Source: a virus
IMG/VR virus record: IMGVR_UViG_3300020452_000997
Location: 1-53,022 of that record
Length of the DNA stretch: 53,022 bases
Direction: 5' to 3' (one strand)
Part shown: positions 17,660 through 33,508 of the stretch, piece after piece
How positions within the stretch are numbered: position 1 is the stretch's first letter
Layout: each line of letters starts with the position of its first letter
The notes under the pieces: model-generated
The model's input: only the letters and a program-made list of their open reading frames with translations
Told to the model about the DNA's origin: nothing
Database searches by the model: none
Translations under genes and position numbers: made by a program

Positions 17660-18393
17660 ACAGAGTAATAGCCAAATTGCTTTAAATTCCAGTAGAAAAC
17701 AGCTTCGTTGCCACCAGAGAGAACAACACTTGAGGTTGTCTGGGCAACAGAAAGAACCTGCCCTGCGTTTGATGGTGTGTTTACCGTTCCCACAGAAAAT
17801 GTAAGATTGCCATCCCCCGCTGTAATAGCTCCAATACCAGCTAAGGTTCCGTCAAGAATTATCAAGGTATCAACAGCAGCATAATCATAGCCTGCACTAT
17901 TAATAGTCAAGGCGTAGTCGCCACTGGCAGCCCCACTGTTTGTGATCGTGAGATCAACCGTCAAGCCAACGCCGCTGCCGCTTGTTGTATCGATCGGAAT
18001 ATTTGTATAGGTACCATTTACGCCTGCCGAAGGAACTGATCCATTCGCTCCAAGAGTTAAAGCGTTTCCAGTGCTCCAGACGAGTGCTGCGTGAGAGAAG
18101 TCAATCGATGTAGCTCCTCCGTCATGAGGGAAAACAGTTGCCTTGGTAGTAAGAGCTACGCCATCGTCTGTATAGGTTGTCACGTCTGCAGAAACATAGC
18201 TAATAACCTTACGCTGATAGCCGCCTGTCCCTAAAGGAACCTCGAAGCCAAGGAAAGTGGTGTCGTTCGTAATGCCAGGTTGGTAGGAAGTGCCAGTCGC
18301 GCTAATCAAGCGAGCCTCAAAGGAATTGCCCACAAACCTATTTGTAACCTGAGCTGTTAACTCAGAACTAGATATTTTAGCAGCAATCGCCAT
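17656..18393 (-). CDS. Tail-tip structural protein, 245 aa
   Basis: Ser/Thr/Gly-rich beta protein. The N-terminal 90 residues (FEARLISATGTSYQPGITND, LGFEVPLGTGGYQRKVISYV) resemble tail-associated proteins that I have seen in cyanophages. The C-terminal half has repeats such as TITNSGAASGDYALTINSAG. A late-promoter-like site lies 20 bases upstream, and four coupled small genes follow. The likely role is a minor tail or baseplate protein. Confidence 0.6.
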   Translation of the reverse strand: MAIAAKISSSELTAQVTNRFVGNSFEARLISATGTSYQPGITNDTTFLGFEVPLGTGGYQRKVISYVSADVTTYTDDGVALTTKATVFPHDGGATSIDFSHAALVWSTGNALTLGANGSVPSAGVNGTYTNIPIDTTSGSGVGLTVDLTITNSGAASGDYALTINSAGYDYAAVDTLIILDGTLAGIGAITAGDGNLTFSVGTVNTPSNAGQVLSVAQTTSSVVLSGGNEAVFYWNLKQFGYYSV

Positions 18394-30353: not shown

Positions 30354-30441
30354 GAACCTGTTTTGCTTTTTTCTGCAGATTTTCTGAGGGGGCTGCCTGA
30401 GCAGTGCGTCTGTACTATCGGGGGTGGGGGGTATTTATACT

Positions 30442-30618
30442 TAGGTATATATACTCAGGTACAGGTGTACTGCCGTTTCGTTGGTGTCTGAAGCCGTAGG
30501 TACTTATACCTAGTTGCCTTCCTAGGTATTTATACTTAGGCACTTATACCTAAGTGTGCTCACTCCTGCCCTCGTAAGTAAAAATACTTATTCGAGAAAC
30601 AATGAGCACTTATACCTA
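30442..30618. repeat. Left cluster of six 16-bp near-palindromes (operator-like)
   Basis: Copies start at 30442, 30497, 30523, 30537, 30575 and 30603. The best is TAGGTACTTATACCTA (30497), and the others differ by a few bases (TAGGTATTTATACTTA, TAGGCACTTATACCTA, TAAGTAAAAATACTTA). The copies at 30523 and 30537 share their ends and are 14 bases apart. They lie between the leftward 301-aa gene and the first rightward gene at 30670. This is the only content I see in 30354-30669. Confidence 0.75.
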
Positions 30619-30669
30619 TTGGCACTGGTGGTCGCGTCGCTATGCTGTAAAGGTAAAGGAAAAAAATCC

Positions 30670-30981
30670 GTGATCAAATTTCAATTCTATCTCGGCACTG
30701 ATACCCGCGGCAGGATGACCGAGCAGGCAGCGATTAAGCTGGCCTATGATTTGGCCGCTCGTCACTTTCCTAGCGGTCATAGCATCCGTGAGGAGGAGGG
30801 CCGATGGACTGGCCAGCAGGGACCAGTGGATGAGGTTACCGTCGTTGTCACGTGGCTCGCTGAGGCTGACCACAGCATGCACGATCACCAAGCCAGCTGC
30901 TTCGCGAAAGCTTACAAAGATGCCGCCTATCAAGAGGCCGTGCTAATTGAAAGACAAACCGTCGAAGCTTTTACAGTCTAG
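30670..30981 (+). CDS. Hypothetical protein, 103 aa, first gene of rightward block
   Basis: The GTG at 30670 has AAAGGA nine bases upstream and gives MIKFQFYLGTDTRGRMTEQA. A longer frame from 30556 would run through the operator cluster and is unlikely. An alternative ATG is 30715. The protein has a helix (AAIKLAYDLAARHFPSGHSI) and a beta-rich middle (DEVTVVVTWLAEADHSMHDH). The family is unknown. Confidence 0.6.
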   Translation: MIKFQFYLGTDTRGRMTEQAAIKLAYDLAARHFPSGHSIREEEGRWTGQQGPVDEVTVVVTWLAEADHSMHDHQASCFAKAYKDAAYQEAVLIERQTVEAFTV

Positions 30982-31079
30982 GACCTCTCAGCCAATTGTT
31001 AAGAGATATAGTTGGCTTTGCTCCTTCCTTCTTATCTCCCCTATATTAGGGGAGCCAACAAACACTAACGGATCAATCC

Positions 31080-31247
31080 ATGCCTTCTTCAAACTCCGAC
31101 CATTGGACTACCATGCTCAGAATCAATAACGAGCATCGCGCATGGATGGCACATTGGAACTTTAAAGTTTGCGCCGATACTGACGACAGAGCTCGCCAAT
31201 ACCTAAACGGCGCTATGCATCATCGCTCACACCAAGCCGAGTATTAA
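31080..31247 (+). CDS. Small hypothetical protein, 55 aa
   Basis: The frame runs from ATG 31080 to TAA 31245-31247. It reads MPSSNSDHWTTMLRINNEHR, then AWMAHWNFKVCADTDDRARQ and a His-rich end. It has amphipathic helices and no membrane segment. The ribosome site is weak. It lies in the rightward block between two small genes, and coding composition supports it modestly. Confidence 0.45.
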   Translation: MPSSNSDHWTTMLRINNEHRAWMAHWNFKVCADTDDRARQYLNGAMHHRSHQAEY

Positions 31248-31316
31248 GTTTTGATAAAGGAGCCGCCATCCGGCTCCAATTCGACTAAATTAAGGAAGAC
31301 AACAAAGGGGCCACCC

Positions 31317-31466
31317 ATGAACAAGATCCAAGCCATCCGCCTACTTGAAGAGCTTACCTACGGCGAGATTCGTGAGCAATTAGACCTAGCAGGTGTCGAC
31401 GGTACAAGCGAGCTCGACAATGAGCAGGTTTACTCACTAGCTCTTGAGTGCTTGATCGATTATTGA
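31317..31466 (+). CDS. Small hypothetical protein, 49 aa
   Basis: ATG 31317 has AAAGGGG six bases upstream. The sequence MNKIQAIRLLEELTYGEIRE, then ELDNEQVYSLALECLIDY, is an acidic helical peptide. It is directly followed by a terminator, so it closes the first rightward transcript. The family is unknown. Confidence 0.6.
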   Translation: MNKIQAIRLLEELTYGEIREQLDLAGVDGTSELDNEQVYSLALECLIDY

Positions 31467-31474
31467 GAAATGTT

Positions 31475-31500
31475 AAAGGGACCCGCTAAGGGTCCTTTTT
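31475..31500 (+). terminator. Rho-independent terminator
   Basis: AAAGGGACCC-GCTAA-GGGTCC followed by TTTTT, 9 bases after the 49-aa gene. Confidence 0.8.
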
Positions 31501-31535
31501 AATTCTAGAATCCAATCAAACAAAGGGATTACCCC

Positions 31536-32135
31536 ATGAGCTCCAAAAACGTACGAAACATTAAGGCAATCCACGCGCTGGCCAGTCTCTCAGAAATCGC
31601 CGACGGCATGGCATGGTACGGCATCGCTAAGTGTGTCGCGATACAACTGGCAGGTGATCACAGTATCTCAGCTAATCAATCCATCGGCGTAATCGCTGCT
31701 TTGTCGCCCCGCAATAAGTGGTCACGTAACTGCCACGATGCAGCCAGCATCATCGCCGCATACAAAGCAGGAGGAGCCGAGCAGGCAAGACTGACCAAGG
31801 TCTGCACCTTCGGGGCTAACAAAGACAAGGCAATCAGGATCTTAGAGTCTGGTTACGAAACGTTACCAAGCATCTCAGATATTCTCAGCGGTCCTAAGCT
31901 GCGCGAGTTCGCATCATGCATCGCTGGACTGGATGACGTCTGCATCGACGGGCACGCGTTCTGCATCTGGAATGGTGGCCGCACTAGCCTGAAAGAGGTT
32001 CCAGCCATCGGCGTGAGACTGCGGCAACAGATTAAAGCTGACTACGCTCAGGCCGCGGCGGATCTCAGGATCACCGGATACGAGTTACAAGCCATTACTT
32101 GGGTGACATGGCGCCGTATCCATAATGTGGGCTGA
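31536..32135 (+). CDS. HhH-glycosylase-like fold protein (tentative), 199 aa
   Basis: The arrangement of helices and motifs (IGVIAALSPRNKWSRNCHDA, CTFGANKDKAIRILESGYET, SGPKLREFASCIAGLDDVCI, DGHAFCIWNGG) recalls a phage/plasmid family that I associate with a helix-hairpin-helix DNA glycosylase-like fold. In glycosylases such a segment carries the catalytic Asp, and here DVCIDGHA could be equivalent. This is inference, and the family name is uncertain. A terminator separates it from the upstream genes. It may act in base recognition or repair. Confidence 0.6.
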   Translation: MSSKNVRNIKAIHALASLSEIADGMAWYGIAKCVAIQLAGDHSISANQSIGVIAALSPRNKWSRNCHDAASIIAAYKAGGAEQARLTKVCTFGANKDKAIRILESGYETLPSISDILSGPKLREFASCIAGLDDVCIDGHAFCIWNGGRTSLKEVPAIGVRLRQQIKADYAQAAADLRITGYELQAITWVTWRRIHNVG

Positions 32136-32138
32136 TAC

Positions 32139-32390
32139 GTGATCGAATTAATTCTCGCGGGAGTCCTGTTCTGCATCTCAACCGGTAAGCGATACGTATT
32201 CAGATCAAAGCCTAAGCCGTATCAGCATCCGTCTTTAAAACCTCAACAATGCGAAATCGTATCACGGGCAACCTGGGATAAGCATGACAGACCCTTCCTA
32301 GGCCCAAAACGAAAACGTAACGCTGAATTTTACCGATCAAGATACGTATCAAAGAAAGTAAAGAAACTTCCGAAGTCGTTACCATTCTAA
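32139..32390 (+). CDS. Basic hypothetical protein with N-terminal hydrophobic segment, 83 aa
   Basis: It starts at GTG three bases after the previous stop. The first residues (MIELILAGVLFCIST) could be a signal anchor. The remainder is very basic (PFLGPKRKRNAEFYRSRYV, SKKVKKLPKSLPF). No family was recognised. It is followed by a hairpin terminator. Confidence 0.5.
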   Translation: MIELILAGVLFCISTGKRYVFRSKPKPYQHPSLKPQQCEIVSRATWDKHDRPFLGPKRKRNAEFYRSRYVSKKVKKLPKSLPF

Positions 32391-32408
32391 ACATTAAGAA
32401 ATATCAAC

Positions 32409-32436
32409 AATCCGGTGTTTTCGCCGGATTTCTTTC
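32409..32436 (+). terminator. Probable terminator
   Basis: AATCCGG-TGTTTTCG-CCGGATT followed by TCTTTC, 18 bases after the 83-aa gene. Confidence 0.65.
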
Positions 32437-32497
32437 TATATTGGAATCAAGCGGGAGATATCCTGCTAAATGTTACTAACTCACTCACTCCAAACTA

Positions 32498-32797
32498 ATG
32501 AGAACTTTCTTCCAAATCTGCTCACTAATTCACACTTTCAATCTTGCCACTATCTTACGCTCAATCGCGTTTCCGTTCGTATTATTTTTCGTCCTTTACT
32601 TTGAGACCATTGATTCACTTTCAAGTTTCGCCACTGATTTAAACTTTCCGCCCGCGCCTAAACCTTACATAAGCCCGATGTCAGAACTTTATAAACAACT
32701 CGAAACGTTAACTGTAAAGAATCTCCGAGAAATCACAGGCATTAAAAAGAGGCTAACTAAACCGGCACTAATTGAGGCTTACCTGACCACCCACTAA
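32498..32797 (+). CDS. Membrane protein with SAP/Rho-N-like C-terminus, 99 aa
   Basis: A hydrophobic helix (ILRSIAFPFVLFFVLYF, about residues 19-36) is followed by a Pro-rich linker. The C-terminal motif (LYKQLETLTVKNLREITGIK, then KRLTKPALIEAYL) resembles the short SAP/Rho N-terminal fold. Cyanophages and their hosts carry stand-alone versions of this module. ATG 32678 would yield just that 39-residue module and may be a second start. The gene is followed by a terminator. Confidence 0.55.
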   Translation: MRTFFQICSLIHTFNLATILRSIAFPFVLFFVLYFETIDSLSSFATDLNFPPAPKPYISPMSELYKQLETLTVKNLREITGIKKRLTKPALIEAYLTTH

Positions 32798-32804
32798 ATG
32801 ATAC

Positions 32805-32965
32805 ATAGTATAAATGCCTAGTTGTTAATCAACTGGGCTTTTTTTTGCGCTATTTGACTAGTACATTTGTTCTAGGTATTTATGCCTATGACACTTCTGA
32901 ACTGGCATAGGTATATTTGCCTAGGTATATTTGCCTAGGTATTTATGCCTAATACATTTGTACTA
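32805..32965. repeat. Right cluster of 16-bp near-palindromes (operator-like)
   Basis: Sites start at 32873, 32908, 32922, 32936 and 32950, with degenerate copies at 32805 and 32859. The core is TAGGTATTTATGCCTA or TAGGTATATTTGCCTA. The last four form a head-to-tail array with an exact 14-base period in which neighbours share TA. The half-site TAGGTA is the same as in the cluster at 30442-30618, so the two clusters bracket the rightward genes. Confidence 0.75.
32817..32848 (+). terminator. Terminator closing the rightward block
   Basis: CCTAGTTG-TTAAT-CAACTGGG followed by a run of eight T, 20 bases after the 99-aa gene. It lies inside the operator-like cluster. Confidence 0.8.
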
Positions 32966-32972
32966 CCGCAAA

Positions 32973-32990
32973 ACAGCCCCGTGGGGCTGT
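32973..32990 (-). terminator. Strong hairpin, possible leftward terminator
   Basis: Perfect stem ACAGCCCC-GT-GGGGCTGT. Leftward it is followed by TTTTGC. It could stop leftward read-through from the block ending at 33627. Confidence 0.5.
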
Positions 32991-33149
32991 TCACTATCAT
33001 AGCTGCATGCCACCAAATTTTTACGCCAACCCTCCGCCGCCGAATCTTAACCAACTGTAATGTTGCAGATTGTTACAGAAACTTGACAAATCGCAAGGGC
33101 GAAGCCCATCCCCCCGACGCAACGACTAACCTATCGAGCCCTCTCAGAA

Positions 33150-33293: not shown

Positions 33294-33378
33294 AAGCAGA
33301 TGAAGTCAAAGCAAAGCAATCTAAGCAAAGCTCTCTGTATTGGATTTTGTATTAAAGGTCTTTATATATAAGTATAGT

Positions 33379-33462
33379 TGTGCATGGTGTACATCGATGT
33401 TGTGCGTCTTGTCCACACTGGCTGTGCATCTCGTCCATGTTAGTCCTGTGCATGGTGTACAT
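33379..33462. repeat. Four iterons, consensus TGTGCRTSKYGTMCAY (origin-like)
   Basis: Copies start at 33379, 33401, 33423 and 33447. The first and last are identical (TGTGCATGGTGTACAT), and the inner two read TGTGCGTCTTGTCCAC and TGTGCATCTCGTCCAT. Start-to-start distances of 22, 22 and 24 put them on about the same helix face. This is typical of initiator-protein sites at an origin. It lies in a gene-free gap between converging transcripts. Confidence 0.7.
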
Positions 33463-33508
33463 GATTTGATTGACAGAGATAGATCTTATGAGTCGATTGA
33501 CTAAAAAG

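Follow-up and report, generated by a model that had tools for sequence, protein, structure and literature searches.

Clustered palindromes in a cyanophage contig as candidate operator arrays for host regulators

In a 53,022-bp virus contig (IMG/VR record IMGVR_UViG_3300020452_000997, analysed over its whole length and referred to here as the window), two clusters of short palindromic sites lie on either side of a small block of rightward genes. Our best explanation, to which we assign a probability of about 0.6, is that both clusters are operator arrays for regulators of the host, namely LexA and a second factor, probably a light or redox regulator and most likely PedR, with the left cluster placing the block under host control and the right cluster serving as a decoy. 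The phage genome would thereby bind host regulators through bare DNA. The phage belongs to the S-CBS2/S-CRES group of Synechococcus siphoviruses, and as S-CRES/S-CBS2 genomes are 71-74 kb long, the window holds only part of its genome; the portal protein shares 69-76% identity with its counterparts in S-CRES1, S-CRES2, S-CRES3 and S-CBS2. The hosts are marine or estuarine picocyanobacteria, the window carries a psbA fragment at its right end, and the part of the genome seen shows no sign of lysogeny. Structural genes at 1-30.3 kb and the genes to the right of 33.3 kb point leftward, and the rightward block lies between them, at about 30.67-32.80 kb.

Two mixed arrays flank the rightward block

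We defined motif A as TRRGTA-N4-TACYYA, with TAGGYA-N4-TRCCTA as its strict form and TRRGYA-N4-TRCYYA as the form used for counting, motif B as the cyanobacterial LexA box, and motif F as a Fur-like box. An earlier sequence-only reading of this DNA had proposed that two clusters of one near-palindrome bracket the rightward block, and the bracketing was confirmed: the 53 kb record contains six perfect TAGGYA-N4-TRCCTA sites, all six of them inside the two clusters and none elsewhere. Both clusters are non-coding. When up to two mismatches to the strict form were allowed, 20 matches were found, compared with 5.3 +/- 2.2 in shuffled sequences. Counted together, A, B and F sites number 14 in the window, against a mean of 0.74 and a maximum of 5 in 300 dinucleotide shuffles, and the densest 300 bp hold 7 such sites, against a shuffle maximum of 2. 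The clustering is far beyond chance.

All six left-hand copies reported at 30442-30618 were recovered by the motif scan. They comprise TAGGTATATATACTCA at 30442-30457 (two mismatches to the strict form), TAGGTACTTATACCTA at 30497-30512 (none, with a TATACT 18 nt further on), TAGGTATTTATACTTA at 30523-30538 (one), TAGGCACTTATACCTA at 30537-30552 (none, overlapping the preceding site by 2 bp), TAAGTAAAAATACTTA at 30575-30590 (two) and TGAGCACTTATACCTA at 30603-30618 (two), which lies 22 nt 5' of the hexamer TATGCT, a possible promoter of the rightward block. The cluster had been placed upstream of the first rightward gene, and it lies wholly there, because this gene probably starts at GTG 30670 and not at 30556, a start inferred from the sequence and from the homologue in the related phage locus L224.

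On the right, where at least five copies and two degenerate ones had been described, four A copies stand, all of them perfect: TAGGTATTTATGCCTA at 32873-32888, TAGGTATATTTGCCTA at 32908-32923 and again at 32922-32937, and TAGGTATTTATGCCTA at 32936-32951. The next site, TAATACATTTGTACTA at 32950-32965 (reverse AGTACAAATGTATT), is a different motif that resembles the lexA boxes of the host, GGTACAAATGTATT. The 14-base period attributed to four right-hand copies holds for the three A sites at 32908, 32922 and 32936, the only A copies so spaced, and the fourth step is taken by the other motif. The copies regarded as degenerate, TAGTACATTTGTTCTA at 32859-32874 (14-mer core 32860-32873, with the next A site 14 bp on) and the site at 32950-32965, are LexA boxes rather than decayed A sites. 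A third LexA box, GGTACAGGTGTACT at 30458-30471, is perfect on both strands, and AGTGCGTCTGTACT on the plus strand at 30403-30416 is one mismatch away from RGTACNNNDGTWCB. The full LexA consensus is matched at 30458 and 32860, and all but one position of it at 30403 and 32951. The arrays are mixed, with A and B interleaved in one 14-bp register, and a Fur/Zur box (TGANAATNATTNTCA core) is absent from both window clusters. The right cluster had also been thought to cover the terminator of the block, which it does not: the intrinsic hairpin, on the plus strand at 32816-32838 and followed by eight T, ends about 20 bp before the first site at 32859.

Motifs A and B in host genomes

As judged from sequence, motif B is the host LexA box, because it matches the cyanobacterial LexA consensus RGTACNNNDGTWCB / AGTACWNWTGTACT (PMC3091678) and because such boxes lie upstream of host lexA genes. 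Among Cyanobiaceae lexA genes, 22 of 30 carry a box just upstream, for example GGTACAAATGTATT or GGTACACCTGTATT. Compared with the described cyanobacterial regulon (PMC3091678), whose consensus and lexA boxes the phage B sites match, the phage sites differ in being arranged in tandem and in deviating less from the symmetric consensus than most sites in hosts do. Only 3 of 121 host genomes contain a perfect 16-mer LexA site, a kind of site that is common in the phage arrays.

Motif A likewise is an element of the host, with a conserved position at orthologous promoters, namely those of the group-2 sigma gene, ndhD, ndhI and chlL. Six of the 17 perfect A sites found in 201 Cyanobiaceae genomes, each from a different genome, lie between mgtE and a group-2 sigma gene, just behind the former. 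With up to one mismatch allowed, an A site precedes this sigma gene in 20 of 29 loci that were fetched by the sigma protein and not preselected, and in 25 of 34 overall. A wider pattern search, with 40 fetched loci (L501-L539 and L428-L437 among the host loci), placed A between thrB and ndhD in 18 loci (two from an earlier search), between ndhA and ndhI in 6, before chlL in 2 and before an RpaB-like regulator in 2; these loci were chosen by eye from the match list, so that such fractions are not frequencies, and the host gene names are our reading of the translations. At the ndhD and ndhI promoters, A mostly lies 18-21 nt before an extended -10 element (TGNTANNNT-like), which suggests an activator-like position. 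In Prochlorococcus and Synechococcus, the palindrome TRRGTA-N4-TACYYA at the promoters of ndhD, ndhI, the group-2 sigma gene and chlL apparently has no prior assignment.

The half-sites TRRGTA/TACYYA resemble those of NarL/LuxR-type regulators. A GerE-type helix-turn-helix is encoded in 21 of 21 Cyanobiaceae genomes, and all 11 host genomes examined encode a small LuxR-type protein whose CRDGFNCC tail is conserved. PedR, a LuxR-type redox regulator that controls chlL/N/B and ndhD2 in Synechocystis (PMC13421787), is the best candidate for the protein that binds A. Its regulon overlaps the genes with A sites at chlL and ndhD, and the half-site TRRGTA fits TRGGY in part only. The Cyanobiaceae sites lie upstream of ndhD, ndhI and chlL, and they differ from the Synechocystis regulon (PMC13421787) in being full inverted repeats that also occur before the group-2 sigma gene. 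Autoregulation of PedR through A was considered and is unsupported, as the regions upstream of PedR-like genes, when scanned, contained no good A site.

Recurrence in other phages, probable local control and possible titration

Conservation in related phages was found in part. The loci L013/L014, L024/L091 and L224 and the phage S-CRES3 carry arrays, and A/B arrays are absent from the close relatives S-CBS2 and S-CRES1, so that conservation extends to several relatives and the overall distribution is patchy; the proposal that all relatives require them was rejected on the same two phages and on the podoviruses without an array around DUF7178 that are named below. In S-CRES3 the arrays occupy 17884-18031 and 20679-20801 of L100. 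In L014 and L024 the array follows the same last gene as in the window, with site orders BAABAAAABFBA and BABABAAAA, respectively, and related mixtures occur in L224, L005-L009, L358 and S-CRES3. Fur/Zur-like boxes (TGAGAATNATTNTCA; for the Zur consensus, see PMC9337993) are present in L014, L224 and others, including S-CRES3. At 31.5 kb, S-CRES1 (L103:31505) has a cluster of AGTGGACAA repeats instead.

From an IMG/VR scan for pairs of LexA boxes lying within 30 bp, we analysed 80 regions among the matches listed, a sample that is not wholly independent, as some contigs are relatives of the window itself. In these regions, A ranked first of 360 half-site permutations, with at least 35 matches at up to one mismatch compared with a mean of 2.3, and Fur-like boxes gave at least 33 matches in at least 22 loci. 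The set includes T7-like loci such as L141, which encodes a phage RNA polymerase and a terminase-like gene as read from translations, and L332, whose primase resembles that of Synechococcus phage S-H1. Both L332 and L339 contain long back-to-back runs of LexA boxes together with Fur-like boxes, and these runs exceed what a promoter needs. By sequence, comparable clusters recur across many unrelated cyanobacterial viruses. A BLAST search of the array against the phage collection returned chance short matches only, and a single A match means little, because the phages picked by one perfect A site (L085-L223) are mostly without an array.

These comparisons bear on the nature of the binding protein. 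The sequence-only reading had seen operator arrays for one repressor or partition-like protein; the operator arrays are retained here, and the single protein is not, as there are at least two operator types, a host LexA box and a host promoter element. Operators of one phage-encoded repressor, or parS-like sites for a partition protein, would account for tandem non-coding palindromes that lie beside a small counter-oriented block and are kept in some relatives. We nevertheless consider this explanation very unlikely, as these site types are also present in phage families with little else in common (L141, L311-type podovirus loci, L332), which departs from the pattern of lambda-type operators, and as no CI-like or ParB-like protein was present among the window proteins searched, which did not include every open reading frame (ORF); nor was any repressor family found among the searched proteins of the block and its neighbours. 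Less probable still are replication-origin iterons or an RNA-level array of processing or termination hairpins. Tandem repetition every 14 bp resembles that of iterons, and in RNA the individual palindromes could fold into small hairpins, but no turn in GC skew occurs at the array, no Rfam match was obtained, and the sites are identical to known host operators, with three motif types in variable order. A boundary system that isolates the block had also been proposed and is possible, yet no positive evidence for it emerged.

The explanation that we favour, operator arrays for host regulators, has two parts. The left cluster fits local control because it occupies the promoter region of the block, with A at 30603 placed 22 nt before TATGCT, and the block, which includes a DNA-glycosylase-like gene, would probably come under host SOS and redox control. 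For the right cluster, titration is favoured because no phased -10 follows its A sites, because it lies 3' of the terminator, where no promoter is evident, and because boxes elsewhere exceed a promoter's need. Its tandem near-perfect sites would most likely act as a decoy and, as genome copies accumulate, could titrate LexA and the A-binding factor off the chromosome. Local control and titration are not mutually exclusive.

An explanation by local regulation only, in which host LexA and the A-binding factor control neighbouring phage promoters through ordinary operators with no titration, seems unlikely to us, although it deserves more weight than the two above. It accommodates the left cluster as the promoter region, the A sites 22 nt from TATGCT and 18 nt from TATACT, and the co-occurrence of arrays with the DUF7178 gene family, members of which, in the LexA-pair set, accompany 16 of 57 array loci, mostly at distances of 0.3-0.8 kb, and 1 of 60 loci that have no array, an association that is confounded by phage lineage. 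It does not readily accommodate the right cluster behind a terminator, the many LexA boxes in a row in some phages, or the mixing of Fur-like, LexA and A sites, whose order and number vary, and DUF7178 is missing from most LexA-pair arrays. Gene orientation flanking 50 unique arrays resembles background and does not separate promoter from decoy models.

Several observations weigh against operator arrays with a decoy on the right. The spacing at 30603, which is possibly class-II-like, and the link to DUF7178 speak for local regulation in the left cluster at least. Overlapping sites spaced by 14 bp probably cannot all be filled together, which is poor for a decoy, and the arrays are dispensable, because S-CBS2 and S-CRES1 are without them. 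Perfect A sites are not enriched in the host genomes (17, compared with about 36 for a reversed control); count alone thus gives no enrichment, recurrence of position is the informative signal, and only the recurrent host positions of A are significant. Finally, the assignment to PedR draws on regulon overlap and motif resemblance.

A broader proposal, to which we give somewhat less than even odds, is that several cyanophage families carry DNA sponges, near-ideal operator arrays for LexA, a PedR-type A-binding factor and Fur/Zur at once. Replicating phage DNA would then strip these regulators from the host chromosome and, with no viral protein involved, shift host SOS, electron-transport and metal regulons to the advantage of the phage. 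LexA-controlled phage promoters and operator titration are already known in principle. LexA boxes occur in CTXphi and other LexA-controlled temperate phages, with one or two at a promoter; the arrays described here likewise place a host LexA operator on a phage genome and differ in repeating it, in mixing it with other host operators and in belonging to phages whose known parts show no sign of lysogeny. Multicopy operators can titrate repressors, as in lacO- or lexA-type effects on plasmids, and here too extra copies could deplete a repressor, although these arrays are natural, viral and directed at several regulators, and we infer the titration. The pMarR protein of P-SSP7 acts on host rne (PMC9692554), which is likewise a cyanophage reprogramming host transcription, by a protein and not by DNA sites. 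Our literature search, which did not cover subscription journals, yielded no account of LexA or Fur arrays in cyanophages, nor of arrays in which operators for several host regulators are mixed across families of these phages. If the proposal is true, lytic cyanophages steer global regulators of major ocean photosynthesizers by DNA alone, which would partly explain the changes that infection brings to host photosynthesis and stress genes. The arrays would also be a natural read-out of host regulatory motifs, as they led to the palindrome that is conserved at the promoters of ndhD, ndhI, the sigma-factor gene and chlL.

Genes of the block and adjacent elements

All genes of the block lie on the plus strand. 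The first, which is DUF3574-like (30670-30981 with the probable GTG start; longest ORF 30556-30981), is followed by a small ORF of 55 aa at 31080-31247, for which a family search gave no family, and one of 49 aa at 31317-31466 that is conserved beside the arrays in L014 and L224. The 199-aa product of the gene at 31536-32135 matches DUF7178 (phrog_3842), a family that is widespread in phages, is listed as unknown, and has K121 and D138 invariant. The structure predicted for this product (pLDDT 94) has its best matches among Ogg2/AGOG 8-oxoguanine DNA glycosylases of archaea and bacteria (best E 0.009, TM 0.5-0.6), which suggests a DNA-glycosylase-like fold. Around DUF7178 in the podoviruses P-SSP10, NATL2A-133 and 9515-10a, no array was found.

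An 83-aa ORF at 32139-32390 is conserved in L024 and L358, and the last gene, at 32498-32797, encodes a 99-aa protein with a hydrophobic N-terminus and homologues of 74-78% identity in L014, L024 and L358. In every locus where it was found, this gene directly precedes the array. The C-terminus of the protein (LTVKNLREITGIKKRLTKPALIEAYL) is SAP-like by eye only, with no Pfam match.

Further elements lie beyond the right array. A GTTCACTATCATA element on the plus strand at 32989-33001 lies 3' of the array in array-bearing relatives; in the form GTTCACTATCAY it follows the array in L014, L024, L224, L005, L007, L009 (twice), L358 and L306/L307, and it is possibly a further operator or a -10 element (TATCAT). 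Downstream, a conserved CTTGACAAATCG...GGGCGAAGCCC at 33075-33125 is shared with L014, L024 and L224 and gave no Rfam match. A second repeat cluster at 33340-33470, GTGCATGGTGTCCATG-like and immediately 3' of an extended -10-like TATATATAAGTATAGTT, has a counterpart of identical kind in L024 and TCTTCAAATTGAAGA repeats at the equivalent place in L014, and resembles an operator or leader of its own that changes fast.

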